Assembly: GCA_016283195.1 (NCBI GenBank) | Contig: JAEEML010000124.1 | Location: forward strand, 1 to 38,222 | Reading direction: 5' to 3' | Length of the DNA stretch: 38,222 nucleotides | From: Deltaproteobacteria bacterium | Lineage (GTDB): Bacteria > JAEEML01 | Position numbers and translations under genes: made by a program | Shown here: positions 642 through 36,686 of the stretch, one piece after another | How the letters are laid out: every line of letters begins with the position of its first letter | Numbering within the stretch: position 1 is the first letter of the stretch | The notes under the pieces: model-generated | The model's database searches: none | What the model was told of the DNA's origin: nothing | What the model saw: only the letters and a program-made list of their open reading frames with translations

Positions 642-1118
642 TCACTTAATAAAGTAGGCACCAAGCGCCACTAAAGCCCCGGCATAAATCCCGGCGGCCA
701 CATCATCCATAGTAACGCCAAAGCCATTTTTAACTTTCTTATCGAAAAATGAAGCCGGCCAGGGTTTGGTAATATCAAAAAGGCGAAAGGCGGCAAAAAG
801 CAAAAGAGCCATGAGCGGGCTAAATTGCGGAACCAAAAGAGCTGCCACCAAATAACCGGCTACTTCGTCGATAACAATGCGCCCGTCATCGGTTTCGTTA
901 AATATTTTTCCGGCTTTGTGGGCAATAAGCACCGAAAGTCCGATAAACAAAAGAGTTACCACATATAAAAGCCAGTTTGGCGCCAGCAAAGAACACAATG
1001 AGTAGATGAGCACTCCGCCCAAAGTGCCGAAAGTTCCTGGGGCTTTGGGCAAAAATCCCAGGCCAAAAAAGGTAGCTAAAATCAAAATCAGCTTTTCGCC
1101 AGCACTATACTTTTTCAT
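642..1118 (-). CDS. pgpA: Phosphatidylglycerophosphatase A
   Basis: 158 aa; FGLGFLPKAPGTFGTLGG, IVIDEVAGYLVA, FRLFDITKPWPASFFD, GFGVTMDDVAAGIYA motifs of the PgpA family. Confidence 0.93.
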   Translation of the reverse strand: MKKYSAGEKLILILATFFGLGFLPKAPGTFGTLGGVLIYSLCSLLAPNWLLYVVTLLFIGLSVLIAHKAGKIFNETDDGRIVIDEVAGYLVAALLVPQFSPLMALLLFAAFRLFDITKPWPASFFDKKVKNGFGVTMDDVAAGIYAGALVALGAYFIK

Positions 1119-3481
1119 ATATTTCTAACCCGTAGTAACCAGCCGCCGCCCTCTTTTAAGAGTTCCATGAGCTGCTTATCACCGATAGTATGTAAAATAG
1201 CGCCAAGACGGGCAATAAAATATTCTTCCGGCACCGCCACAGGCAGATTATCACCATAAGCCATAGCGGCAATCACCGTAAGCAGATTTTCCACTTCCGG
1301 GCGCAAAAAACTATACACGCTGTCACAGCTCGTGAGATCATTTAAAAGCTCTTCCGCCAAATCATAGGCCTGCTGCCAGAGCAACTGAGAGATGTAAAGA
1401 TAAATAAGGGCCAACGTATCAAGCATAAACGGCCGGCGGCCTGAGCTCTGTATGCTGGCAAGTTCGCTCATTTTTTCGCGGAATTCCCGGCGATTTCGCT
1501 GCCATAGATAGCGGTGAACGGTGCTCATAAGTTCCAAATAAAGGCTTGGTATGGCACTGCGATCGGTAAAGAAATGCTCAACGGCCAAAAGAGCCATATA
1601 CCAGCGGCGCTTTTCTATTTCCAATACCAGAAAATAGAGGCGGCGCTCCAAAATAAGCCCCGCAGAACGATCCATAGTGGCCACACAAAAATCCATTAGA
1701 GCGCTAAGGTCGCGGCGGTAGATGATTTGTATTAATTCATCCTGCCAGGCGGCATCAGAAGGCGGCAGAGAAAAAGCCCGTTGCAACTTGCTTTCCCCAA
1801 GGCGCGGTGGCCAGGGAGGAAACGGCAGCTCCAAAGAGGCCAATTCAACACATTGGTAAAGCTCGCCGGTGGCAGCAATTTTTATAGCCCCAAGTGCAGT
1901 TGCCGATGTTTTTTCAGCGGCATCCCAAAAAGTTGGCGGCCCCGGAAACGACACAGTGCCTAAAGAGAGATGAATAACCCAATCCAGCCCGGTGAGAATC
2001 AGGCCATCGCTACAAAGAGCTGCGCTTTTAAGAGGGCTAGGAAGCACTAATTCACGATAATTATAGGGCTCTTTCCCGGCTGTTAGGGCAAATTCATAAA
2101 TAATCAGGCCACTATCAATTAAAATGGCAGTATCCTGCCCGGAGGCCAAAAGCTTGGGCGAGATCAGGGTCATGGGCAATTGATAGCGTTTTTGGCGGCG
2201 GCCGCTAAGATAATATAAGCAATATTTATCGGCTTCCTTTGTGAGAATAAAATGCGGTTGAAGCGCAATAAAAGAGGGAGATTTACTGCTTTTAATGTGC
2301 CCAAAACTATTTTGCAGCGCCTCTATATACCAGGTGCGCTGCGCTAAAAAGAGCTGCCGCCTGCTACTCCAAGTATAATTAATAATTTGCCCGTTATTAT
2401 ATAAGAACCAGAGTTCGCCGCTATGTTCATCGTAGGCAAAATCAACAGCTTGCTCAAAAACTCGCGGTTTTATCAGCAAATAGAGCGGGTCTGCCGGATT
2501 ATATTTTACTGTGGGCAGAATAGTCCTTAGCAACATGAGTTCGGCGCCGGCCAAGGTATTGCCGGCCAGCTTTAAAACAGTTGTGGCATCGTTCAAGGGA
2601 TAAAGGGCCAGTAAATCGGCCGGTAGATTAATCTCGGCCGTAAAACCCATAATGGTTAAATACCATGATGAACGCGCCATATCTTCCGTTCGCCACAAAA
2701 AGGCCTCGCCGGCGAGAGCATATAATTCTGCTGCTTCCGGCGCTAATTTGCTGGGTAACAAGCGACTAAAGGCGGCGCTTTTGGCAATTACAAGATTCTT
2801 TTTTTCGGCAGACGAAAAACCAATCAATTTAGGCGACGGCGCTAAATAACGCCCCAGTTCGTCGGCTTTAGAGGCAAATTCTATTAAATAGTCGCTTAAG
2901 AGCTGGGCGGCCTGCGGTGTAAGCCAGTACAGGCTCTCCTCCGGAGAGCTCAGGCGATTTAACAAAATATTAAGCGCCGCCGCCTGGTCGCCGGCTAAAA
3001 GCTGGTTAGCCATTTTTTCCAAAGTGCGGCTTACAGTTAAAGGCGGCGGAGCTTTTTCAATATTGCCGTCGTTTTGCAAAAAACTAATAAAATATGGATA
3101 GATAGGACTTTTAGAAGTTATGCGATAGCCGCTATAAGTGCAAATTGTCAGCCCTGGCCAGCGCAATAAATCCGGCAACAAAAGTTTAAACCGGCCTGTG
3201 GGGCCCGAAGCGCCGAAAAGCGGCAAAGCATGAAAAACATCATCCTCAAAAACTTGCTCAGAGTAGCCGGGAAGCGGCGGCAGTTCCGCGCCCAAAAGGC
3301 GGTAGTTCCGCTCGCCGGAGCGCGGCATATTAAGCCACAAAAGCGGCTCAAGCGGCGCCGGGAAAGCCGGGACAGCAGCCCCGCACTGGCCGCAATAGCG
3401 GCTCACCATAAATGAACCGCACTGCCCGCAGTGTGGCAGAAGGCACAAAAAAGGCCTTGCATTTTCGTTAGTTACCGGCAC
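1115..3481 (-). CDS. Uncharacterised 788-aa protein with N-terminal zinc ribbon (CGQC-x8-CGQC) and possible beta-propeller-like middle
   Basis: Long ORF with GTG start overlapping the upstream gene by 14 bp; N-terminal double CxxC; middle shows beta-strand-rich repeats; C-terminal third looks helical. Confidence 0.75.
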   Translation of the reverse strand: MPVTNENARPFLCLLPHCGQCGSFMVSRYCGQCGAAVPAFPAPLEPLLWLNMPRSGERNYRLLGAELPPLPGYSEQVFEDDVFHALPLFGASGPTGRFKLLLPDLLRWPGLTICTYSGYRITSKSPIYPYFISFLQNDGNIEKAPPPLTVSRTLEKMANQLLAGDQAAALNILLNRLSSPEESLYWLTPQAAQLLSDYLIEFASKADELGRYLAPSPKLIGFSSAEKKNLVIAKSAAFSRLLPSKLAPEAAELYALAGEAFLWRTEDMARSSWYLTIMGFTAEINLPADLLALYPLNDATTVLKLAGNTLAGAELMLLRTILPTVKYNPADPLYLLIKPRVFEQAVDFAYDEHSGELWFLYNNGQIINYTWSSRRQLFLAQRTWYIEALQNSFGHIKSSKSPSFIALQPHFILTKEADKYCLYYLSGRRQKRYQLPMTLISPKLLASGQDTAILIDSGLIIYEFALTAGKEPYNYRELVLPSPLKSAALCSDGLILTGLDWVIHLSLGTVSFPGPPTFWDAAEKTSATALGAIKIAATGELYQCVELASLELPFPPWPPRLGESKLQRAFSLPPSDAAWQDELIQIIYRRDLSALMDFCVATMDRSAGLILERRLYFLVLEIEKRRWYMALLAVEHFFTDRSAIPSLYLELMSTVHRYLWQRNRREFREKMSELASIQSSGRRPFMLDTLALIYLYISQLLWQQAYDLAEELLNDLTSCDSVYSFLRPEVENLLTVIAAMAYGDNLPVAVPEEYFIARLGAILHTIGDKQLMELLKEGGGWLLRVRNI

Positions 3482-4274
3482 AGAGCACCACCACTTCCGG
3501 GGAAATATGAATCAAAACACTTTCCGCCGCATAACGCTTATTAATCTGGCGCAAAAGTCCGGCCTTGTCATGGGCCAGCCCTTCCAGCTGCCAGCGCTGT
3601 CTGGCGGCATCAGCCACCACCCGCTCGGCAATGCGCTTACTGGTTAAAAAATAATATGTATCTATCTGTTCCAGTTGGCGTTTGCGCTCTTCTTCCATAG
3701 CCAAAGTGGCCGCATTTATTTTCTCGGCCAGAGCCTCTTTAAAATATGCTTCGGCCAAATTCTCCACTTTTTGTAACACGCTCTCATCCCAAGCAGGAAA
3801 AACGGCACCTTCACTCAGGCTGGCGAGTAAATTCTGCTCTTCATCGGCCGTGAGCTGCGGCAAAAGCTGTGGTTCGCCGCTTTCCGGCAGCCAAAAAGGC
3901 AAAAGACAAAGCTCTTCATCTATATTCACTGCGCGGATAGATACATTCCACCAGACAAAAAAGAATTGCCCGCTCCCGGCACTCATGTTATGCCATTTTT
4001 CCGGCAAATTGCGCCGTTTTTTGGCCAAAAGCCGCGCTTTATACACTGCCTGGCAATGCTCCAGAATATGTTCCACAAGCCAAGAAAATTGGCTGGTGGA
4101 ATGGGCTTCGTCCATAGAAGTTACAGTGATGGTGCTACCGGCTGCCCGCCCGGCCAAAGTAGCTGTCTCCGGAATGGCTATTTTTAGCTCATCGCCAGCT
4201 AAAACCACCTCGTTATATCCAAGAAGCTCCTTACTGTATTCTGCCAAAAGCGGCAGGGCACTTTTTTCACTCAT
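3468..4274 (-). CDS. Uncharacterised 268-aa protein, helical/coiled C-terminal part; partner of adjacent SNF2 helicase
   Basis: ORF overlaps both neighbours (8 bp with the SNF2 gene, 14 bp with the 788-aa gene). C-terminus ...RQLEQIDTYYFLTSKRIAERVV...LLRQINKRYAAESVLIHISPEVVVLCAG. Confidence 0.75.
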   Translation of the reverse strand: MSEKSALPLLAEYSKELLGYNEVVLAGDELKIAIPETATLAGRAAGSTITVTSMDEAHSTSQFSWLVEHILEHCQAVYKARLLAKKRRNLPEKWHNMSAGSGQFFFVWWNVSIRAVNIDEELCLLPFWLPESGEPQLLPQLTADEEQNLLASLSEGAVFPAWDESVLQKVENLAEAYFKEALAEKINAATLAMEEERKRQLEQIDTYYFLTSKRIAERVVADAARQRWQLEGLAHDKAGLLRQINKRYAAESVLIHISPEVVVLCAGN

Positions 4275-6165
4275 GCTGCTCTCCGGCGGAAAAGTTAAGA
4301 ATGGTGGCCGTCATCTGGCGGTCATGGTCAAATAAGAGCTGGGCCTCCTCAATCTCCTTGGCCAGTTCTTTAAAACGTTTCAAAAGCTCCTCATCTTCGA
4401 CGCTTTCCAAAATAGCCTGCCCTATGCGCCCCTCTATAGTGGCCTCATTTTTCACATAGCTCAAAATAGAATCAATTTCGCCGACAACCTTGGTAAAGAG
4501 GCCTATCTTGGCCCAGAGCAACGCCAAAAGATAACTCTCAAAAGTGCCTTCACTCACAATATTAAATATTTCCACTATATTTTGCTGCCCCAAACGATGC
4601 ACCCGACCGATGCGCTGTTCCACCCGCATGGGATTCCAAGGCAAATCATAGTTAATAATGCGGTGGCAAAATTGCAAGTTGAGACCCTGCCCGCCAACTT
4701 CGGTGCTAATCATAATGGGCACATCGGCTTTAAAAGCCGCCAGCTGCTCCCGGCGTACGCGCTCTGTTTGGGCGCCGCTAAAGGTGACAAATTTATAGCC
4801 AGCCATAGTGAGAATTTGCTCAAGTTTGGTAAGCGTGGCATGATATTCAGTATAAATTATCACCTTATCGGCAGGATCCCAAGAAGACAAAAGCTTAAGC
4901 AGAGCCTTCATTTTGGCGCTGAGTCCAAGAGATGCCCCCTGCTCCATAATGCGCCGCGCCAGAGCCAGTTGCCCATCATCTTTTATGCGCTTTAGCAAAG
5001 AATTTTCCATAGTGGCCAAAATAGCCGCCGGTGAAGAAGTAGATTCTTTGAGCAAAACCAGCAAAATGAGCAACCACCGACTACGCTCGAATGTATCGCC
5101 GCCAAAGCGATCGGCCAAAACTTCTGTGCGGTAAAGCAGGCGGGCAAGCTCCAAAATAAATTGATAAAAACGCTCTTCGGCAGCCGAAAGCTTTACCGTA
5201 ACCGTTTCCACCTGGCGGCTGGGGATAGGCACCAAAGTAGAGATGCGCCGATTGCGCACCATCACTCGCCGGCAACTGTCTTGCAAAAGATCGGCATTAC
5301 GCACCGAGTGATTCTCATCAATAAAGCGTCGCTTAAAAAAGCGCCGCGAACGAAAATGCCCCGGTTGCACCAACTGAATGAGCGAATAGAGCTCATACAA
5401 ATTATTTTGCAAGGGTGTGGCCGTTAAAAGCAGTGTGTAGCGACGCGGCAAGCTGTACATAAAGCGGTACAAAATGGTGTTACTGCTGCGCAAAATCTGG
5501 GCTTCGTCAACAATAACCATATCCAGCGCCTGGCTGGCCGCCAGAGTATTATATGGTGCTCCGCGCACTCGCTGGTGAGAAATAATAGCTATATCCGGCC
5601 AGTGTTCCGGCACATCATGAATAATCTCTGCCGCAAGACCAAATTTTTCCGCCAGTTCGTTCTGCCATTGCTCCATAAGAGCTGCCGGCACAATAATAAG
5701 CGTTTTTTTGACCATTTTGCGGGCCAAGAGCTCATTTAATATAAGGCCGGCCTCCACCGTTTTGCCAAGACCGACTTCATCGGCCAAAATAGCGTTCCCG
5801 CCCATGCTTCCCAGCACCTGACGCACGGCTTGCAACTGATAATCACGCGGCATAAAGGGCAAAGTGCCCAGAGTTTTAAATTGAAAGCCGCCGTTTTGCC
5901 TGAGCATTCGCCGGCAATTTATGGCTGCTCTAAGATGAGCCATGGTGGCATTATGGGCTCGCTTTTGGCGTAGCTTTTCCCAAAGCGGCGCGGCAAATGG
6001 TGCCATCTTCCAAGTCGGCCCGGAGAGCGGCTCTAATTCTTCCGGAGATGCCGAAGGCGCGGCATTTTTGGCACAGCCGCAAAAGAGGCAAAAGGCGGCG
6101 CTCAGCGGGTTATCTTCCCCGCATTTTGGGCAGCGATAAAAGGTATAATCACCTAAAACCGGCAT
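4267..6165 (-). CDS. SNF2-family (RapA/HepA-like) DEAD/DEAH-box helicase with N-terminal zinc ribbon
   Basis: 632 aa; CPKCGEDNPLSAAFCLFCG zinc ribbon, ADEVGLGKTVEAGLI (Walker A), VIVDEAQ (motif II), LLLTATPLQNNLYELYSL, STEVGGQGLNLQFCHRIINYDLPWNPMRVEQRIGRVHRLGQ. Confidence 0.95.
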   Translation of the reverse strand: MPVLGDYTFYRCPKCGEDNPLSAAFCLFCGCAKNAAPSASPEELEPLSGPTWKMAPFAAPLWEKLRQKRAHNATMAHLRAAINCRRMLRQNGGFQFKTLGTLPFMPRDYQLQAVRQVLGSMGGNAILADEVGLGKTVEAGLILNELLARKMVKKTLIIVPAALMEQWQNELAEKFGLAAEIIHDVPEHWPDIAIISHQRVRGAPYNTLAASQALDMVIVDEAQILRSSNTILYRFMYSLPRRYTLLLTATPLQNNLYELYSLIQLVQPGHFRSRRFFKRRFIDENHSVRNADLLQDSCRRVMVRNRRISTLVPIPSRQVETVTVKLSAAEERFYQFILELARLLYRTEVLADRFGGDTFERSRWLLILLVLLKESTSSPAAILATMENSLLKRIKDDGQLALARRIMEQGASLGLSAKMKALLKLLSSWDPADKVIIYTEYHATLTKLEQILTMAGYKFVTFSGAQTERVRREQLAAFKADVPIMISTEVGGQGLNLQFCHRIINYDLPWNPMRVEQRIGRVHRLGQQNIVEIFNIVSEGTFESYLLALLWAKIGLFTKVVGEIDSILSYVKNEATIEGRIGQAILESVEDEELLKRFKELAKEIEEAQLLFDHDRQMTATILNFSAGEQHE

Positions 6166-6175
6166 AGCACCACAC

Positions 6176-6997
6176 CTAGTCCACTAAAACCACAAGAGCC
6201 CCGGCCGACAAAAGCTGCCTGAGGCGCTTGGTTTCGCTGATTAACTGGCTATCTTCCGCTGAGAGGACGATATCCACCGGATAGGTGCCGCTGCTTTTTA
6301 CAGCTTTAACGTGCCAGGGATTAGCTCCCGCCCTTTGGGCCAATTTGCGCGTCACCTCTTTTATGTAAATAAGCGGCCCAACCTCCATGAGCGCTGCCGA
6401 ATCGGCGGTATCAAAAAGCACCGCCCCCTGCGGAGAGCGAATTTTGGGCAAGAGCGCCGGTTTAAGGCCGGTGCCACGCGCGTCGATAATAATACCGCTG
6501 GCCGCCCCCTTTAGCGGCGTCACTTTGGTATTTCTTTGTTCACCCGGTTCTAATTTGGCATAGAGAATAGCCGAAAATGCCCCTTCGAGCGGCATATAAG
6601 TTGTCACTTCAGCCGAATTATCAGCCCCAAATTTCACTCCGCTTTGGCGATAACTGCGTAAAATACCGCGCACTTTGTATTTTAGCGCCCCCTTCTCTTC
6701 CAAATAGGCCAAAAGTGTCTGGTTTGAGTTAAAGCGAATGCCGCTAAGCATATCTATATAGGCCCGCCAGGCCTTTTGCTTGGCCGCAAGCTCTGCTCCC
6801 TCACGCGCCTGGGCTGGTGATTCCGGGTCCGGATAAGGAGAGGCTTTAGCCACCACTTTGAGCTGCCTGGTACTCCAGTCAATAGTTCCTTTGTTAAGGC
6901 GTTCAACTTTTTCGTTAGCTAAAAGAGCAAGCGGAAATAAAAAAGATATAAGCCCAAACAAAAGAGCTGTTTTTCCGCTTTTAAGGAACCGTTTCAT
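6176..6997 (-). CDS. Secreted LPP20/FlgT-like envelope protein
   Basis: 273 aa with signal peptide (ALLFGLISFLFPLALLANE) and the ..AREGAELAAKQKAWRAYIDML..SGIIIDARGTGLKPALLPKI.. pattern seen in LPP20/FlgT-like proteins. Confidence 0.6.
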   Translation of the reverse strand: MKRFLKSGKTALLFGLISFLFPLALLANEKVERLNKGTIDWSTRQLKVVAKASPYPDPESPAQAREGAELAAKQKAWRAYIDMLSGIRFNSNQTLLAYLEEKGALKYKVRGILRSYRQSGVKFGADNSAEVTTYMPLEGAFSAILYAKLEPGEQRNTKVTPLKGAASGIIIDARGTGLKPALLPKIRSPQGAVLFDTADSAALMEVGPLIYIKEVTRKLAQRAGANPWHVKAVKSSGTYPVDIVLSAEDSQLISETKRLRQLLSAGALVVLVD

Positions 6998-10849: not shown

Positions 10850-12568
10850 TTAGACAAATTGGCGTTTTTTCATAAATAAAAGGATAAGAGCCAGTAAAGC
10901 GCCTAGCCCCGTTTCACCGCCGGCATTGCACCCCTTCTTTTTACTGTTATTCGGGTCGCGGCAATCGGCATCACAAGCGCAATCGCACTTTTTACTCACA
11001 TCACAGGTACAGGGACATTCCGGGTCACATGGGCAATCACTCGAACAGGCGGTATCTATATCACATGCACAAATCTGGCTATTGTTATTATTTTGTTCCG
11101 GTTCATCATCAGTAGTCTCGTCTTGGGCTTCTTCCTTAAAACAAACATTATTAACACATTCCGCACCATCTTCACAGCCGCCACAATCGCAACCCGCAAT
11201 TTCGCCGCAGTTTCTGGCTGCGCAAATAGATTCACAGCCGTTGTCATAGGGCATACAGCCTTCATTAACAGCGCAAGTATCAACATGAGTGCAGAGTTTG
11301 TAGCATTTTTCTTCTTCATCACCTACACAATAGCCAATACCGTCATCACTTGAATTACACCAATAATCTCCATTAATATCACATTCAGTGTGATTATTTT
11401 CCACGCAGAAAGAGTTATAACTGCCCTCCAAATTGCTTGGAACCGGCATACAATATGAGCTGCTGTCAGAAGCGGAACAAGGTTCCGGTTTACATGGGGT
11501 TAAACAGACCGAACCCATTGTTTCTTTATAACAAATCTTGCCATCGCTACAATCGGCGTTAGTTATACATTTTGTGCCGCCCAGCGCATTCCAAGCTTCA
11601 TATGATATGCACACACCACCTCTGCCGGCCGGCTTTTTCTCGCACTTACTGGTGGCAGTATTACATTCCATGCCATAGTCGCAATTGCCGCAGAAGCAAG
11701 CGCCGCTTTGGCCACATTCTTTATTGGCACAGGCAGCTTTGCAAGTGGGATTATCATATTCATTGACAAAGCTTCTTATCCAGTCTTCGTGGATATCAAC
11801 CGGTGTATAGCTGGAAACATAAGCATAGTTTTCACCGGTGGAAAGCACACCGGCTACCCGCACGCCGTCACCATAATCATAAAGTAGCGGTGAGCCGGAA
11901 TCACCTTGCAAAGTACCTTTTTTACCATAACCGATAACAGCCAGCTGGCCGCTGAAATAGCCAAAACAATCAAGTGTTACCCAGTAGCGCTGGCTATTAT
12001 TACTGTATTCATCTTCCGGATCGGTTTTTCCATAGCCGACAGATTGCACTTCATGGCCGATAATATCACTCACACCGCCACTTTTTATCTCTATTTTGGT
12101 GGTAGTATTTTCGGGCTCCTCCAAAATCAAAATGGCAATATCATCGTTAAAATCTTTAAGATAATCTTTGAAATATACTTCGCTCACATAGAGAATTTTA
12201 TCAGGTTGGGAATAATCTGAGCCAATAATAACGTAAATATTATCCGCATCAACCTCTTTGTTCTCATCATAAACACAATGCGCGGCAGTCAGCACCACAT
12301 GTGGCGAAATAAGTGTGCCAGTGCAAGAGCCGGCATATAAATACCCATTATTTTCAAATTCTGAGTAAATAGCCACAATGCTGTCTATTTGTTTAGCAGT
12401 GAGATTGGTATAAAGTGTTGGCTCAAGCTCACCATTAAAAATAGGCTGGTTTATACTCTCGGTGTTTTTAATCTTTTGCAATTCCGGCAAATTACCGGTG
12501 CTTTCGTTCTTACAGCCGGAGCTAAAAAAGAGCGCACTCATAATGAAGTACAAAAAGCATTTCTTCAT
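10850..12568 (-). CDS. Secreted trypsin-like (S1) serine protease with Cys-rich C-terminal region and MYXO-CTERM-like tail
   Basis: Catalytic motifs LTAAHC, NDDIAILIL, LQGDSGSP; signal peptide with Cys (FFSSGCKNES); Cys-rich modules; C-terminal GCNAGGETGLGALLALILLFMKKRQFV. Confidence 0.9.
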   Translation of the reverse strand: MKKCFLYFIMSALFFSSGCKNESTGNLPELQKIKNTESINQPIFNGELEPTLYTNLTAKQIDSIVAIYSEFENNGYLYAGSCTGTLISPHVVLTAAHCVYDENKEVDADNIYVIIGSDYSQPDKILYVSEVYFKDYLKDFNDDIAILILEEPENTTTKIEIKSGGVSDIIGHEVQSVGYGKTDPEDEYSNNSQRYWVTLDCFGYFSGQLAVIGYGKKGTLQGDSGSPLLYDYGDGVRVAGVLSTGENYAYVSSYTPVDIHEDWIRSFVNEYDNPTCKAACANKECGQSGACFCGNCDYGMECNTATSKCEKKPAGRGGVCISYEAWNALGGTKCITNADCSDGKICYKETMGSVCLTPCKPEPCSASDSSSYCMPVPSNLEGSYNSFCVENNHTECDINGDYWCNSSDDGIGYCVGDEEEKCYKLCTHVDTCAVNEGCMPYDNGCESICAARNCGEIAGCDCGGCEDGAECVNNVCFKEEAQDETTDDEPEQNNNNSQICACDIDTACSSDCPCDPECPCTCDVSKKCDCACDADCRDPNNSKKKGCNAGGETGLGALLALILLFMKKRQFV

Positions 12569-31063: not shown

Positions 31064-32083
31064 ATGTTACTTTTAGGTCGGGCGGCTGAGATGGGCGAAG
31101 AACTTTTCGGCAAATATAGACTCATTGAATTTATCGGCAAAGGCGGAATGGCTGAGGTCTATAAAGCCTCAGCCGAAAGCGGCCCCTTTGTCGGTCGTAA
31201 CTTGGCAATAAAGCGCATCTTGCCGGAATTTCAGGATAATTCCGAATATACAGATCTTTTCCTGGCTGAGGCTGATTTAACCAGGATGCTCAAACACCAT
31301 GCAATTATACCTGTTTTGGAAACGGGCATAATTGCCGGAAGATACTATATTCTCATGGATTTTATCAGCGGCATGGATTTGGAAAAGCTCACCTACTGGT
31401 GTCAGCAGTTTAGTATTACCCTGCCCGTTGATTTTTGCTGTTTCATTGCCTATACCATCGCCGAAGCCCTTTCTTATGCTCACAACGCCAAGTCCCCAAG
31501 CGGCACACCGCTTAATATTGTGCACTGCGATGTGACACCGGCTAATATTTTTATTTCCGATATGGGCGAGATTTTTCTGGGCGATTTCGGTGTTTCACAG
31601 AGCATCGGCCTCCTGCAGCGCGATGAGCACGCCGTTATGGGCAAAGCCTCTTATATGGCGCCGGAACAAATCACCGGCCAGGAGGTTTTGTCGGCCACTG
31701 ATATTTTTGCTCTGGGCACCATATTTTATCAGCTGATAACCGGGCGCCCAGCTTATAAAGGCAAAAATTATAATGCCACCTGGGATGCCATCTTGGCCGG
31801 TAGCCACACCCAAGCGATAAAGTTGCGCCCGGAAATTTCCCCCGAGTTGAACATGGTAATCGAGCGCGCCATTGCGCCGAATCTGCCGGCCGGCGGCCTG
31901 CATGGCTGGCTGCGTCATAATCTGACTCCCTGGAGCACAGAGCGTTACACCGCTGCCGATGAATTACTCAAAGACTTAGGGCCCCTTTTTGATCATAAAA
32001 TAGGCGACCCATTGGCTATAGCCGCCGTGGTTCGCGGCATTCAACATGTTTTAAAAAGCAAACAACCGGCGAGTTGTCGCTAG
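31064..32083 (+). CDS. Ser/Thr protein kinase (PknB/Hanks type), non-RD
   Basis: IGKGGMAEVYKA, LAIKRIL, IVHCDVTPANIFI, LGDFGVSQ, GKASYMAPEQITG. An alternative start is the ATG at 31091. Confidence 0.92.
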   Translation: MLLLGRAAEMGEELFGKYRLIEFIGKGGMAEVYKASAESGPFVGRNLAIKRILPEFQDNSEYTDLFLAEADLTRMLKHHAIIPVLETGIIAGRYYILMDFISGMDLEKLTYWCQQFSITLPVDFCCFIAYTIAEALSYAHNAKSPSGTPLNIVHCDVTPANIFISDMGEIFLGDFGVSQSIGLLQRDEHAVMGKASYMAPEQITGQEVLSATDIFALGTIFYQLITGRPAYKGKNYNATWDAILAGSHTQAIKLRPEISPELNMVIERAIAPNLPAGGLHGWLRHNLTPWSTERYTAADELLKDLGPLFDHKIGDPLAIAAVVRGIQHVLKSKQPASCR

Positions 32084-32105
32084 GTAATATTATGGAGTTT
32101 TTATA

Positions 32106-34100
32106 ATGAAAACGGCCAATTTAGCCATCATGTTTACCGACATTCAAGGCTATACCGAAAAAACTTCCGCCTCTTCCAGAGAAGAAGCTCGCGACCTTTT
32201 AAGCAAACATGCCAACCTGCTGATGCCTATTATCCGCCATTTTCGCGGGCGCCTTGTCAAAACGATAGGCGATGCCTTTCTGGTGGTTTTTTACTCACCG
32301 ACGGCAGCTGTTCTTTGCGGCACCACCATTCAGGATGCTCTTTACAGGTACAATAGCGACAAAGATTCGCAAAATCACATAAATATTCGCGTGGCTATTA
32401 ATGTCGGCGAGGTGATTCTCTCACGCGGCGATGTTTATGGAGAAGCGGTAAATATTGCTTCCAGAGTGGAAAATATCACTCCGGCTCAGGAGGTGTATTT
32501 AACCGAATCGGTCTATCTCTCGATGAATAAGACAGAAATTCGCACCGAAAGAATCGGTGAATTTAATTTAAAGGGCATTCCGGAACCGGTTACCGTTTAC
32601 TGCGCCCCCCACAATAAGATCACTCAGACCGAAGATGATGTTTCCGGAGCAGGCAATATTCAGCGCCGCCTCACTGCCCCGGCACTTTTAACCATGCCTT
32701 ACGGCGGTAAGCACCTGGCCGAGGTAGATTCGGAAATTATTACGCCACGACGTCTAAAAGTTCTTTTGATTTCAGCACTTATTCTGCTTGTTGCCGCCAT
32801 TTCCACTTTTATTGTGCCCAGAGTCCGCAACAATTATCAATGGTCACAGGTCGAATCGGCCATTGGCCGCGGACAAATCGAAAGAGCGCAATCGCTCCTT
32901 AATCAAATTCCCAATCGCGTGGAAACCGACACATCACGCCGTTTTATTTTGCAAGTGGAAATTGCCACCCGCCTTTTGGAGCGTCATGAGTCTGAGCGCT
33001 CAGCTTTAATTCTGGCAGATCTAAAGCCTCAAGATCTATCAGATAAAACAATGGTTTTTCGCTTGCAATTAAGAGCACTTGAACAATTTATAGAGGCCGG
33101 CCAACTGGATACGGCTCTGCATACTATTTCCAGTATCGCCACTTATTCCGATACCGAAAAACGCGCTCTCATTGATATGCACATCGTTCTTGCCGAAGCC
33201 CTTTTAAAAATCGGGCGCTTTGAGGAACTGAAAAGCGAAGTGGAGTTTTTGCAGACAGTGGCTCCGGGTAATGCCAAAACTCACCTTTTGGCCGGCCACC
33301 TGCACATGGCATTAAGCCAGCGCGAACAAACTTTCCAAGAAATTAAAACTGCCTTTATTCATTACGAAAAAGCACTACAAACGGAGCTGGCTCTCGCCAG
33401 TAACGAGCTCCTCCTCGATAACGTGGCCCACTCATATGAAGAATTGCAGGAAAACGAAAAGCAGCAAGTCATCATTATTACCCAGGCGGCTTCTCTCATT
33501 GATAAATATCTTGGCGCAAAAGCCATAGATCCGCTTATTTCTCAGCTGGAAAACGGCAATAACAATAAATTGGCCCGCCGGGCTTTAACCGCGCAAATAG
33601 CCAAACTGGGAGCCAGCAGTGATGTTGACAACATAAAACTGGCTATTGAAGATTTGGAAGGTATCACCTGTAACACGGCCACCAATCGCCGCCATGCTAT
33701 GCGTCTCATCGACAGACTCCGGGAAACTGGTACAGCCGATGTGCGGCCTCTGGGGGCGCTGCTAAAATTTGCCGCCAAACAAAACGGTTGCCAAGCCTAT
33801 GCCTTACAGGCCATCCAGAGACTTATCGGCAAAGATATCGGCTTTATGGCTAAATCCGATCTCACCCTCGCTCCTGTTTTGGAAGAGCTCAGCAATGCCA
33901 ATTGTCAGCGTCTGAAAAATCGCCAGCGGGCCAAAGCCATCCTGGACAATATGAAACGCATCGGCGATTTGCGTACGGTGGGGCCAATTTTAGCTTTCGC
34001 CCAAAAATCCCCCAAATGTGCCGAGCAGGCCATTAACACGGCCAGTGCCATTTTGGGCACAAAAGTACAATTTCAAGAATCTTCCGCAGAAAATCAGTAG
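32106..34100 (+). CDS. Class III adenylate/guanylate cyclase with TM helix and helical-repeat C-terminal region
   Basis: 664 aa; IMFTDIQGYTEKT, LVKTIGDAFLVVF, RGDVYGEAVNIASRVE; TM LKVLLISALILLVAAISTFIV. Confidence 0.92.
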   Translation: MKTANLAIMFTDIQGYTEKTSASSREEARDLLSKHANLLMPIIRHFRGRLVKTIGDAFLVVFYSPTAAVLCGTTIQDALYRYNSDKDSQNHINIRVAINVGEVILSRGDVYGEAVNIASRVENITPAQEVYLTESVYLSMNKTEIRTERIGEFNLKGIPEPVTVYCAPHNKITQTEDDVSGAGNIQRRLTAPALLTMPYGGKHLAEVDSEIITPRRLKVLLISALILLVAAISTFIVPRVRNNYQWSQVESAIGRGQIERAQSLLNQIPNRVETDTSRRFILQVEIATRLLERHESERSALILADLKPQDLSDKTMVFRLQLRALEQFIEAGQLDTALHTISSIATYSDTEKRALIDMHIVLAEALLKIGRFEELKSEVEFLQTVAPGNAKTHLLAGHLHMALSQREQTFQEIKTAFIHYEKALQTELALASNELLLDNVAHSYEELQENEKQQVIIITQAASLIDKYLGAKAIDPLISQLENGNNNKLARRALTAQIAKLGASSDVDNIKLAIEDLEGITCNTATNRRHAMRLIDRLRETGTADVRPLGALLKFAAKQNGCQAYALQAIQRLIGKDIGFMAKSDLTLAPVLEELSNANCQRLKNRQRAKAILDNMKRIGDLRTVGPILAFAQKSPKCAEQAINTASAILGTKVQFQESSAENQ

Positions 34101-34150
34101 AAATATTTTTCCCTAACCGCTTCATTGCCCAGATTATTGAAAATAAATGA

Positions 34151-34179
34151 TAGACATAAGCGCTCCTGTGCACTAGAAT
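34151..34179 (+). promoter_or_regulatory. Candidate sigma70-type promoter for the DUF4388/REC gene
   Basis: TAGACA (34151-34156), 17-nt spacer, TAGAAT (34174-34179); each hexamer matches consensus at 5 of 6 positions. Confidence 0.55.
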
Positions 34180-34183
34180 ACTT

Positions 34184-34208
34184 CCCCTTAGGGGCGGCCT
34201 TATGGCCG
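34184..34208. other. Two back-to-back small inverted repeats (CCCC-TTA-GGGG and CGGCC-TTAT-GGCCG)
   Basis: Read directly from sequence; lie at and just after the predicted transcription start. Confidence 0.6.
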
Positions 34209-34244
34209 ATTAACAGCATAGTGCTTTGCGTGAAAGCGTCATAA

Positions 34245-36686
34245 ATGAGTTTGGAAGGTAGTCTGACAGATATTCCGCTGGGTGAGTTGTTCCAAATCAT
34301 CTCTATGGCTAATAAAACCGGCTCTATAGTTTTACATACAGTCGGAGCCAGTGGTGAAATATTGCTATCGGCCGGCAAAGTATCGGCTGTGCTCAACAGC
34401 AATGTCAAAACAACCATAGGTGAAGTTCTCTTTGAAGACGGCATTATTTCCCCGCAACAATACCAGGAAATGATGTATTATCATCGCCACCATCCGGAAA
34501 ACGAGGATTATCAACCCCCGCGGCTCTGGGAAAAATTCGGTATCGATCCGGCCCAGGTTGAAAGCACATTAAAACACGCTGTGGAGAGCCTCATCTACCC
34601 CATGTTTGAATGGGATGGCACTTTTGATTACACAGTAGATGACAGTGTTATGGATAATTACCGGATATTCTCGGTAAATTCTCCGATGATTGTGCTTAAA
34701 AACGGCATAAATCCCCAATGGTTAGCTATGGAGGGTATGCGCCTTCTCGATGAGAAAAAGCGCAGTGAACCCGATCCTTATTCCGATTTTCTGGAATACA
34801 AAGAAAAGAAGCGGGAAGAAGAGTTTGGCTCTCTCAGCACACCTGCTTATGACGACCCCTTTGTCAGCGAAGTAACCGATGATGATGATTTTTCGGATCT
34901 CAACGACTCTGTAAACAAGGAGCCGGAAAAAGCCCCCGAACAAGAGCCGGAGCAAGAGCCGGAACAAGAGCCGGAACAAGAGCCGGAACAAGAGCCGGAG
35001 CAAGAACCGGAACAAAAACCGGAACAAGAGCCGGAGCAAGAGCCCAAACAAGAACCGGAGCAAGAACCGGAACAAGAGCCGAAGCAACCGGAAGAAAAAG
35101 CTCCGATCGGCCTTCATGAACATGCTCAGTCAATAACTATTGAAGTCAGCGATATAGTGCGCGATGCCCTAGCAGCGGCAGCTAAAGCTAAAGAGATATC
35201 CTCTAACGGCCCTCTGGCCAAAACTGAAGTGGCTGTTAAACCGAAATCGGAGCAAGAGCCGGAACAAGAACCCAAGCAAGAGCCAGAACAGGAACCGGAA
35301 CAGGAACCGGAACAGGAACCGGAACAAGAGCCAGAACAAGAGCCAGAACAAGAGCAGAAGCCTGAACAGGAACCGGAGCAAGAACCGGAACAAGAGCAGA
35401 AGCCAGAACAGGAACAGGAACAGGAACCGGAGCAAGAGCAGGAGCCAGAACAAGAGCCCGAACAAGAGCCCGAGCAGGAGCCCACAGATATTAAATATGC
35501 CGCAGGATGCACAACCATTGTCATAGACGATGACGAGACTTACCTAAGCCAAGTTAAGTCTGAGCTAACCAGCCTTAATCTTTCTGTTTTTACTTGTAAA
35601 TCAGTGCGGCTTGGTATCGATCAAATCAAAGAATCTTTGGCAAAAGAAGTACCGCTTCTCGTTATTGCCGATTTGGTAATAGCCAGATCGGACAGCAGCG
35701 GCATTTTAGGCGGCCTCGAAGTTTTAGCCGAGCTGAAAAAGCTTAATTCTTCCGTGCCTATAATTATTGTCACCGATTACAATAATGAAGATGCCAGGAA
35801 GGAGGCTCTCTCCTCCGGCGCCAATCATTTTATAGACAAGCCGCGCCGGAGTGCCATTTTGCCTAATGCCGTTTCTTCTGAAATGGCAGCTTTTTTCAAG
35901 AAAATAGAGCAGTTAATTGAGCCGCTTTTGCCTAAATCAAGCAAAGCGGACATAGCTCCTTCAGAGCCTGAGTCTGAGCCCAAAGCCCAAACAGCGGCCG
36001 AACCGCAAAATCAAGCTTTGGAAGAAGCACCGGCCGAAGATGCGCCGAAAACGCAAAAAGATGAGCCAGAAAATGATTTTGACCTCACAGCCGAGCTTTC
36101 CGAAGAACTTAGCGATGTGACTTTAGAGCTCGAAGAAGAGGCTCCGGCAGCCGGGCACGATTCGCCGGAAATTTCCACTCTAAAATCTATGATGCTTGAG
36201 CTGAATGACCCGGCAAACAAAGAAAATATCACTCTTCTAATTCTGCGTTTTGCCGCGAGTATTCTCCCGCGGGCGGCAATTTTTTATATTACCGATAACG
36301 AAGCTATCGGCCTTGGGGGATTTTCAAGTATAAACGGCGAGGAAGAAAATAGTAATTTTATTCAAAAAATACGCAAGCTTACCCTACCGATAGATAATGA
36401 TTCCATATTTAAAACAATTGTTAGCTTCCGCACCCCATATCGTGGTATTCTGCCAAATACGGCAGCTAATAATCTGCTGCTGGAAAAACTTGGGGGTATA
36501 AAGCCTATTGAGGTTTTTGCCGCGCCTATTGTCTCCGCCAACAAAGTGGCGGCGATTTTATACGGCGACACCGTATCCCAGCCTCTCACCAATACTCAGG
36601 GGCTGGAAATATTTTTATTGCAAGCCGGTTTGGCTATGGAGCGCACACTTTTAGAACGTAAACTCCTTGAGGCCAGTAAACACTGA
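34245..36686 (+). CDS. DUF4388 (PATAN) + receiver (REC) + GAF-like regulator with (EPEQ)n linkers
   Basis: MSLEGSLTDIPLGELFQIISMANKTGSIVL (DUF4388); TIVIDDDETYLSQV...VIADLVIARSD...IVTDYN...IDKP (REC); C-terminal GAF-like ...YRGILPNTAANNLLLEKLGGIKPIEVFAAPIVSANKVAAILYGD. Confidence 0.9.
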   Translation: MSLEGSLTDIPLGELFQIISMANKTGSIVLHTVGASGEILLSAGKVSAVLNSNVKTTIGEVLFEDGIISPQQYQEMMYYHRHHPENEDYQPPRLWEKFGIDPAQVESTLKHAVESLIYPMFEWDGTFDYTVDDSVMDNYRIFSVNSPMIVLKNGINPQWLAMEGMRLLDEKKRSEPDPYSDFLEYKEKKREEEFGSLSTPAYDDPFVSEVTDDDDFSDLNDSVNKEPEKAPEQEPEQEPEQEPEQEPEQEPEQEPEQKPEQEPEQEPKQEPEQEPEQEPKQPEEKAPIGLHEHAQSITIEVSDIVRDALAAAAKAKEISSNGPLAKTEVAVKPKSEQEPEQEPKQEPEQEPEQEPEQEPEQEPEQEPEQEQKPEQEPEQEPEQEQKPEQEQEQEPEQEQEPEQEPEQEPEQEPTDIKYAAGCTTIVIDDDETYLSQVKSELTSLNLSVFTCKSVRLGIDQIKESLAKEVPLLVIADLVIARSDSSGILGGLEVLAELKKLNSSVPIIIVTDYNNEDARKEALSSGANHFIDKPRRSAILPNAVSSEMAAFFKKIEQLIEPLLPKSSKADIAPSEPESEPKAQTAAEPQNQALEEAPAEDAPKTQKDEPENDFDLTAELSEELSDVTLELEEEAPAAGHDSPEISTLKSMMLELNDPANKENITLLILRFAASILPRAAIFYITDNEAIGLGGFSSINGEEENSNFIQKIRKLTLPIDNDSIFKTIVSFRTPYRGILPNTAANNLLLEKLGGIKPIEVFAAPIVSANKVAAILYGDTVSQPLTNTQGLEIFLLQAGLAMERTLLERKLLEASKH
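34935..35090 (+). repeat. Imperfect 12-bp tandem repeat (gagccggaacaa) encoding EPEQ units, tract 1
   Basis: Direct reading: EQEPEQEPEQEPEQEPEQEPEQEPEQKPEQEPEQEPKQEPEQEPEQEPKQ. Confidence 0.95.
35247..35482 (+). repeat. Imperfect 12-bp tandem repeat encoding EPEQ units, tract 2
   Basis: Direct reading: SEQEPEQEPKQEPEQ...EPEQEQKPEQEQEQEPEQEQEPEQEPEQEPEQEP. Confidence 0.95.

Follow-up and report, generated by a model that had tools for sequence, protein, structure and literature searches.

The main result of this analysis is that the YqhG family, whose genes accompany that of the YqhH/HepA helicase in bacteria and haloarchaea alike, appears by profile comparison to be homologous to the C-terminal tail of RapA, a motor protein that releases stuck RNA polymerase. 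The stretch of DNA analysed, a 38,222-nucleotide contig of a Deltaproteobacteria bacterium that we call the window, probably carries a divergent member of this widespread two-part RapA-like pair, made up of a SNF2 helicase of 632 aa and a 268-aa protein. Since YqhG travels with the YqhH/HepA helicase and matches the RapA tail, a testable function can be offered for what is, in Pfam, a family of unknown function. If this is true, studies of B. subtilis HepA conducted without YqhG have dealt with half an enzyme.

The comparison was made between a partner profile of 91 sequences and a RapA C-terminus profile consisting of E. coli RapA and RapA_C matches. HHalign gave a probability of 91%, an E-value of about 1e-6 and a score of 56, the maximum among 200 column-shuffled profiles being 22.6 and the score of the reversed profile 14.3. 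The match spans RapA residues about 711–922, which we take as the Spacer and C-terminal domain (CTD); the domain order of RapA is NTD, ATPase core, Spacer and CTD, and D744 has been named as a Spacer contact (PMC8501970). In addition, there is a natural fusion, L139, a single chain of 1144 aa from the uncultured bacterium APA_bin_98 in which the helicase is followed by a YqhG-like domain, whereas the window has two genes. The fusion matches the partner HMM at 5e-8 and Pfam RapA_C at 9e-5, the latter below the cut-off. Because the partner profile matches the RapA Spacer and CTD and because the two parts occur naturally fused, the most fitting reading of the pair is that of a RapA divided over two subunits. 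The Nitrospira-type helicases L058 and L136 (1237–1240 aa) resemble helicase–partner fusions on inspection, but no confirmation came from the partner HMM. YqhG and RapA were found together in no paper in a literature search that left most subscription papers outside its reach, and the link between them may be unreported so far.

Relatives of the window helicase, sought in a domain-wide sample of 386 genomes at a threshold of E ≤ 1e-40, are present in 27 of them, the window genome counted in. The best 80 loci were also taken from a scan of one genome per species (84,980 species), and many of these belong to Bacillales. Nearly every helicase relative has a same-strand gene immediately 3′ of it. 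According to the partner HMM, 86 of 105 loci have a YqhG-like partner immediately downstream of the helicase, a count from which two duplicate loci and E. coli RapA were left out, and the pair spans Bacillales, cyanobacteria, acidobacteria and haloarchaea. The two genes overlap at 58 of the 86 junctions, a figure that depends on a mechanical choice of starts. In Bacillus and Paenibacillus, the partner is YqhG, with PF11079 matches of 1e-46 to 1e-127; outside the Bacillales it is a greatly extended version of YqhG, and many of these extended proteins carry zinc ribbons after the shared core.

The earlier note on this DNA had named in advance what would speak against its proposal, namely, that homologues of the partners do not co-occur with the helicase. 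For the partner family, the reverse was found: when the same 386 genomes were searched with the partner profile, borderline matches (E > 0.001) being set aside, 25 had the partner and 23 of the 27 helicase genomes had both (Fisher p 8e-31, uncorrected for genome relatedness). When the partner is not beside the helicase, it is encoded elsewhere in the genome (G053, G196, G328, G241 and G332), and all 13 of the helicase genomes in the class of G332 have it. What is widely conserved is a pair of genes, encoding the helicase and a YqhG-like partner. Three genes of the window had been put forward as one conserved module, the third encoding a protein of 788 aa; only the two-gene pair recurs, and the 788-aa gene was found as a third gene in none of the other helicase–partner loci examined.

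The partners themselves vary in what follows the shared core. Those of L038, L039, L046, L049 and L057 continue into a cysteine-rich stretch of great length that looks like an array of many zinc ribbons, and such arrays gave no Pfam match in those scanned. In the actinobacterial partners of L099, L110, L116 and L138 (651–732 aa), the core and a zinc ribbon are followed by a second conserved C-terminal domain that ends in L..R..W. The name itself calls for care: in work on E. coli and S. aureus (PMC6727828, PMC12646430), “yqhG” seems to denote other proteins, unlike Bacillus PF11079, the S. aureus yqhG being called periplasmic in the abstract, and this homonym can mislead literature searches.

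In the window, the helicase, the 268-aa protein and the 788-aa protein are encoded by three minus-strand ORFs with overlaps of 8 bp (helicase and 268-aa genes) and 14 bp (268-aa and 788-aa genes), as first described and as the coordinates bear out. The codon usage of all three resembles that of the adjoining housekeeping genes (miaB, dut and pgpA), whereas that of opposite-strand ORFs does not; therefore, the three ORFs are genes and not chance frames. The earlier note had also read the overlaps as a sign that the trio shares a function. Such overlaps are not peculiar to the trio, since the whole region is a dense string of nine genes (aminotransferase–dut–miaB–BFN–273aa–helicase–268–788–pgpA), its junctions lying between an overlap of 14 bp and a gap of 10 bp, and pgpA (642..1118, minus strand; Pfam PgpA, 3e-39), the gene after the trio, also overlaps the 788-aa gene, by 4 bp. 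As the string is equally dense throughout, overlap alone is no proof of shared function; it suggests an operon, not necessarily a complex. We regard pgpA as part of the string and as lying outside the proposed machine. The suggested Myxococcota setting finds no support, the window genome being the sole member of its phylum among the genomes searched.

The helicase (4267..6165, minus strand) is of the YqhH/HepA type of the RapA group, as judged from Pfam (SNF2-rel_dom, 2e-37; Helicase_C, 5e-23) and from 34–40% identity to YqhH-type helicases. The core SNF2 motifs and the N-terminal zinc ribbon noticed at the outset are both in place. The Walker A motif DEVGLGKT (residues 129–136; 5758..5781, minus strand) is invariant in the helicase alignment, the Walker B motif DEAQ (residues 220–223; 5497..5508, minus strand) is mostly DEAH in the relatives, and TATP and motif VI, EQRIGRVHRLGQ (residues 516–527; 4585..4620, minus strand), are likewise intact. 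The cysteines of the ribbon, CPKC...CLFC, occupy residues 12–29 (6079..6132, minus strand); Pfam Zn_Ribbon_1 matches at 7e-4, under the cut-off of that model, and the ribbon aligns with those of the L034, L035, L038, L039, L046 and L057 helicases, among others. On alignment evidence, the window helicase is related to, though divergent from, B. subtilis YqhH/HepA. In a tree constructed without a DrmD sequence, its SNF2 core is nearest to YqhH-type helicases, with E. coli RapA apart on a very long branch, and it is sister to the G332 helicase with 99% SH-aLRT, although both branches are long and the exact position is unsure. The NCBIfam RapA equivalog scores it at 152.7 of 576 bits, missing the cut-off. 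A separate arrangement occurs at L033, L154, L155 and L156, in the genomes whose helicases are most closely related to that of the window: a gene of 722–726 aa matching TerB_N (3e-8; at 4195–6375 in L033) lies directly upstream of the helicase, with a junction of between a 28-bp overlap and a 17-bp gap, and the YqhG-like partner is elsewhere in the genome.

Several known arrangements resemble that of the window in part. In Bacillus, the helicase core is 34–40% identical to that of the window, and YqhG stands, like the 268-aa protein, directly behind the helicase, with 259–280 aa, a helical hairpin and a C-terminal strand; however, Bacillus YqhH is without the N-terminal zinc ribbon, the 268-aa protein, unlike Bacillus YqhG, misses the PF11079 model, and the window has the additional 788-aa gene. 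The zinc-ribbon relatives (L038, L039, L046, L057/KSB3 and others) have the aligned N-terminal helicase ribbon and an overlapping partner gene, as in the window, but their partner is 557–750 aa long with a long zinc-ribbon array, whereas that of the window has 268 aa and no ribbons. E. coli RapA shares the RapA-group SNF2 core, and the YqhG family matches its Spacer/C-terminal region; in contrast to the pair, it is a single chain of 968 aa with an N-terminal domain, and its flap-tip-binding residues differ from those of the window helicase.

What, then, is the 788-aa protein (1115..3481, minus strand), which has a GTG start, predicted helical ends and, at low confidence, a possible strand-rich middle? 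The double CxxC reported at its N-terminus is present as a zinc-ribbon-like pair, CGQC at residues 18 and 30 (residues 18–33; 3383..3430, minus strand). The protein gave no match in Pfam, NCBIfam, PADLOC, PHROGs, the PDB or the 386 genomes, nor in scans of viral and genome collections; as in the earlier note, no named family can be given for it. Two weak genome matches (E 0.003 and 0.007) were discarded, the first lying in a protein-kinase locus and the second being a short fragment; an overlapping third gene at L042 was rejected as a relative because it is UvrA, as recognised from its sequence. The beta-propeller proposed for the middle of the protein is unsupported, there being no family match and AlphaFold of the protein alone giving an unusable model (pLDDT 34). 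It is a serious possibility, falling just short of an even one, that the 788-aa protein is unconnected with the pair and merely shares its operon, as pgpA does, which would be compatible with a split motor. The uniform density of the nine-gene string and the lack of the gene at the other loci favour this; on the other side, the gene immediately follows the pair, with an overlap larger than any other in the string, and its product opens with a zinc ribbon, where other partners carry their zinc tail. The 268-aa protein stops at roughly the point after which other partners have their zinc tail, and the 788-aa protein may be such a tail, split off from the partner. The 788-aa protein is tied to the helicase–partner pair by adjacency alone. 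If it belongs to the machine at all, it would be a lineage-specific addition, and its N-terminal ribbon might, as one guess, take over from the zinc tail found after the shared core in most YqhG relatives. The orphan adds little on its own until relatives turn up.

We propose, with somewhat more confidence than doubt, that the window encodes a RapA-like motor of two subunits, the helicase and the 268-aa protein, as a divergent counterpart of Bacillus YqhH and YqhG. Both subunits would be produced in step from one overlapping message and would assemble into a complex. The SNF2 ATPase subunit would translocate on double-stranded DNA, and the YqhG-like subunit would supply in trans the equivalent of the Spacer and C-terminal domain of E. 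coli RapA, its helical hairpin and beta elements docking the motor on a protein target and regulating it. By homology with RapA/HepA, the likeliest target would be RNA polymerase, stalled or post-termination, which would be backtracked or dislodged by ATP-driven translocation. In E. coli RapA, the Spacer and NTD touch the zinc domain of polymerase β′ and the ATPase core touches the flap tip (PMC8501970), and YqhH, also termed HepA/RapA, is cited as interacting with RNA polymerase (PMC7385302).

The same split motor could act on another substrate, remodelling other DNA–protein complexes, for example, in DNA repair; we consider this rather unlikely. The flap-tip patch of RapA (L216, V217 and L220) is Q, N and A in the window helicase and varies in YqhH relatives, and because it is not conserved, docking may work differently or another complex may be the target. 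Moreover, B. thuringiensis YqhH has ATPase and helicase activity in vitro and deletion of yqhH lowers UV survival (PMC10054049), and in PcrA-depleted B. subtilis, deletion of hepA changes survival with MMS (PMC7385302). However, the UV and MMS effects fit polymerase clearing too, the half of RapA that YqhG matches includes the Spacer, which contacts the β′ zinc domain, and HepA is cited as polymerase-binding (PMC7385302). The boldest form of the polymerase reading, in which YqhG is the C-terminal half of RapA working in trans, bacteria and haloarchaea widely possess a two-subunit remodeller of RNA polymerase, and a 788-aa zinc-ribbon subunit has been added here to retarget or regulate it, is offered tentatively, as more doubtful than probable.

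For the window, the proposal depends on the 268-aa protein (3468..4274, minus strand), which stands in the place of the YqhG-like partner by position, profile rank and predicted architecture. It is on the same strand as the helicase, directly 3′ of it, with a length like that of Bacillales YqhG. When the protein was ranked against the partner profile by HHalign together with 400 unrelated real genes, 400 shuffles, the reversed protein and the 788-aa protein, it came first of the 803, with a score of 31.5 (E 0.0012), the next being 27.6. AlphaFold, given the family alignment as input and thus not independent of it, predicts a confident hairpin and C-terminal strand with the rest poor (mean pLDDT 62). 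The hairpin comprises residues 164–217 and 223–247 (3534..3785, minus strand; pLDDT mostly 80–98), and its LEQIDTYY aligns with the L-x-x-YY signature of the partner family. In a Foldseek search of the PDB with this model, RapA (6bog) ranked third at E 0.31, the two entries above it being long-helix microtubule proteins with rmsd near 45; this match is suggestive only.

It would be improbable, but not negligibly so, that the 268-aa protein is unrelated to YqhG and that an independent coiled-coil protein took the place of the partner beside the helicase. In its favour, hmmsearch of the protein with the partner profile is not significant (E 0.36 and 3.5), the similarity of its N-terminal half to the partner family is no higher than chance, and the best alignment, the source of the score, falls in the coiled coil. 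Comparisons with the RapA C-terminal profile directly and with the partners of sister helicases in the class of G332 were not significant either, and PF11079 gives no match even at E 10, a model that also misses many clear partners, such as L092. Against it are the exact gene place, a length within the 259–280 aa range, the HHalign rank above 400 real unrelated genes, and the window genome itself, in which no second partner copy was found; the other strong helicase genomes have a partner or a fusion. We infer, strongly from its place and weakly from its sequence, that the 268-aa protein is a YqhG, and we consider it the probable equivalent of the RapA Spacer/CTD. The suggestion that it substitutes for the C-terminal region of RapA-like proteins is accordingly the most likely reading. 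The accompanying remark that no named family is recognised for it finds no support, since its position, its length and its rank in the profile comparison all point towards the YqhG/PF11079 superfamily.

An anti-phage defence module, with a DISARM-, Dpd- or BREX-like helicase and unknown partners, is very improbable: DISARM DrmD, Dpd DpdE and BREX BrxH, which have a related RapA-group SNF2 core, are the best NCBIfam/PADLOC matches of the helicase, but all are far under their curated cut-offs (DrmD, 232 of 610 bits), none of their partner genes is seen beside it, and the genes sit among dut, miaB and pgpA. Because the matches of a Bacillus YqhH rank in the same order (DrmD_b, 261 of 950), these scores are generic to the RapA group, and the PADLOC/NCBIfam defence assignments were rejected. 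The neighbours scanned contained no defence system and no DISARM gene, with only weak shared-domain matches. A role in transcription or remodelling, which the earlier note had weighed against defence, is the better guess, given the housekeeping setting and the generic nature of the scores.

The remainder of the window holds several other features. At 6176–6997, between the helicase and the BFN-domain gene, there is a 273-aa protein without a Pfam match. At 10850–30921, a gene for a trypsin-like protease precedes a long series of TPR-repeat proteins, several genes there being without a Pfam match, and on the plus strand, at 31064–36686, lies a signalling cluster of a Ser/Thr kinase, a protein with an N-terminal adenylate/guanylate cyclase domain and a DUF4388–response-regulator protein.
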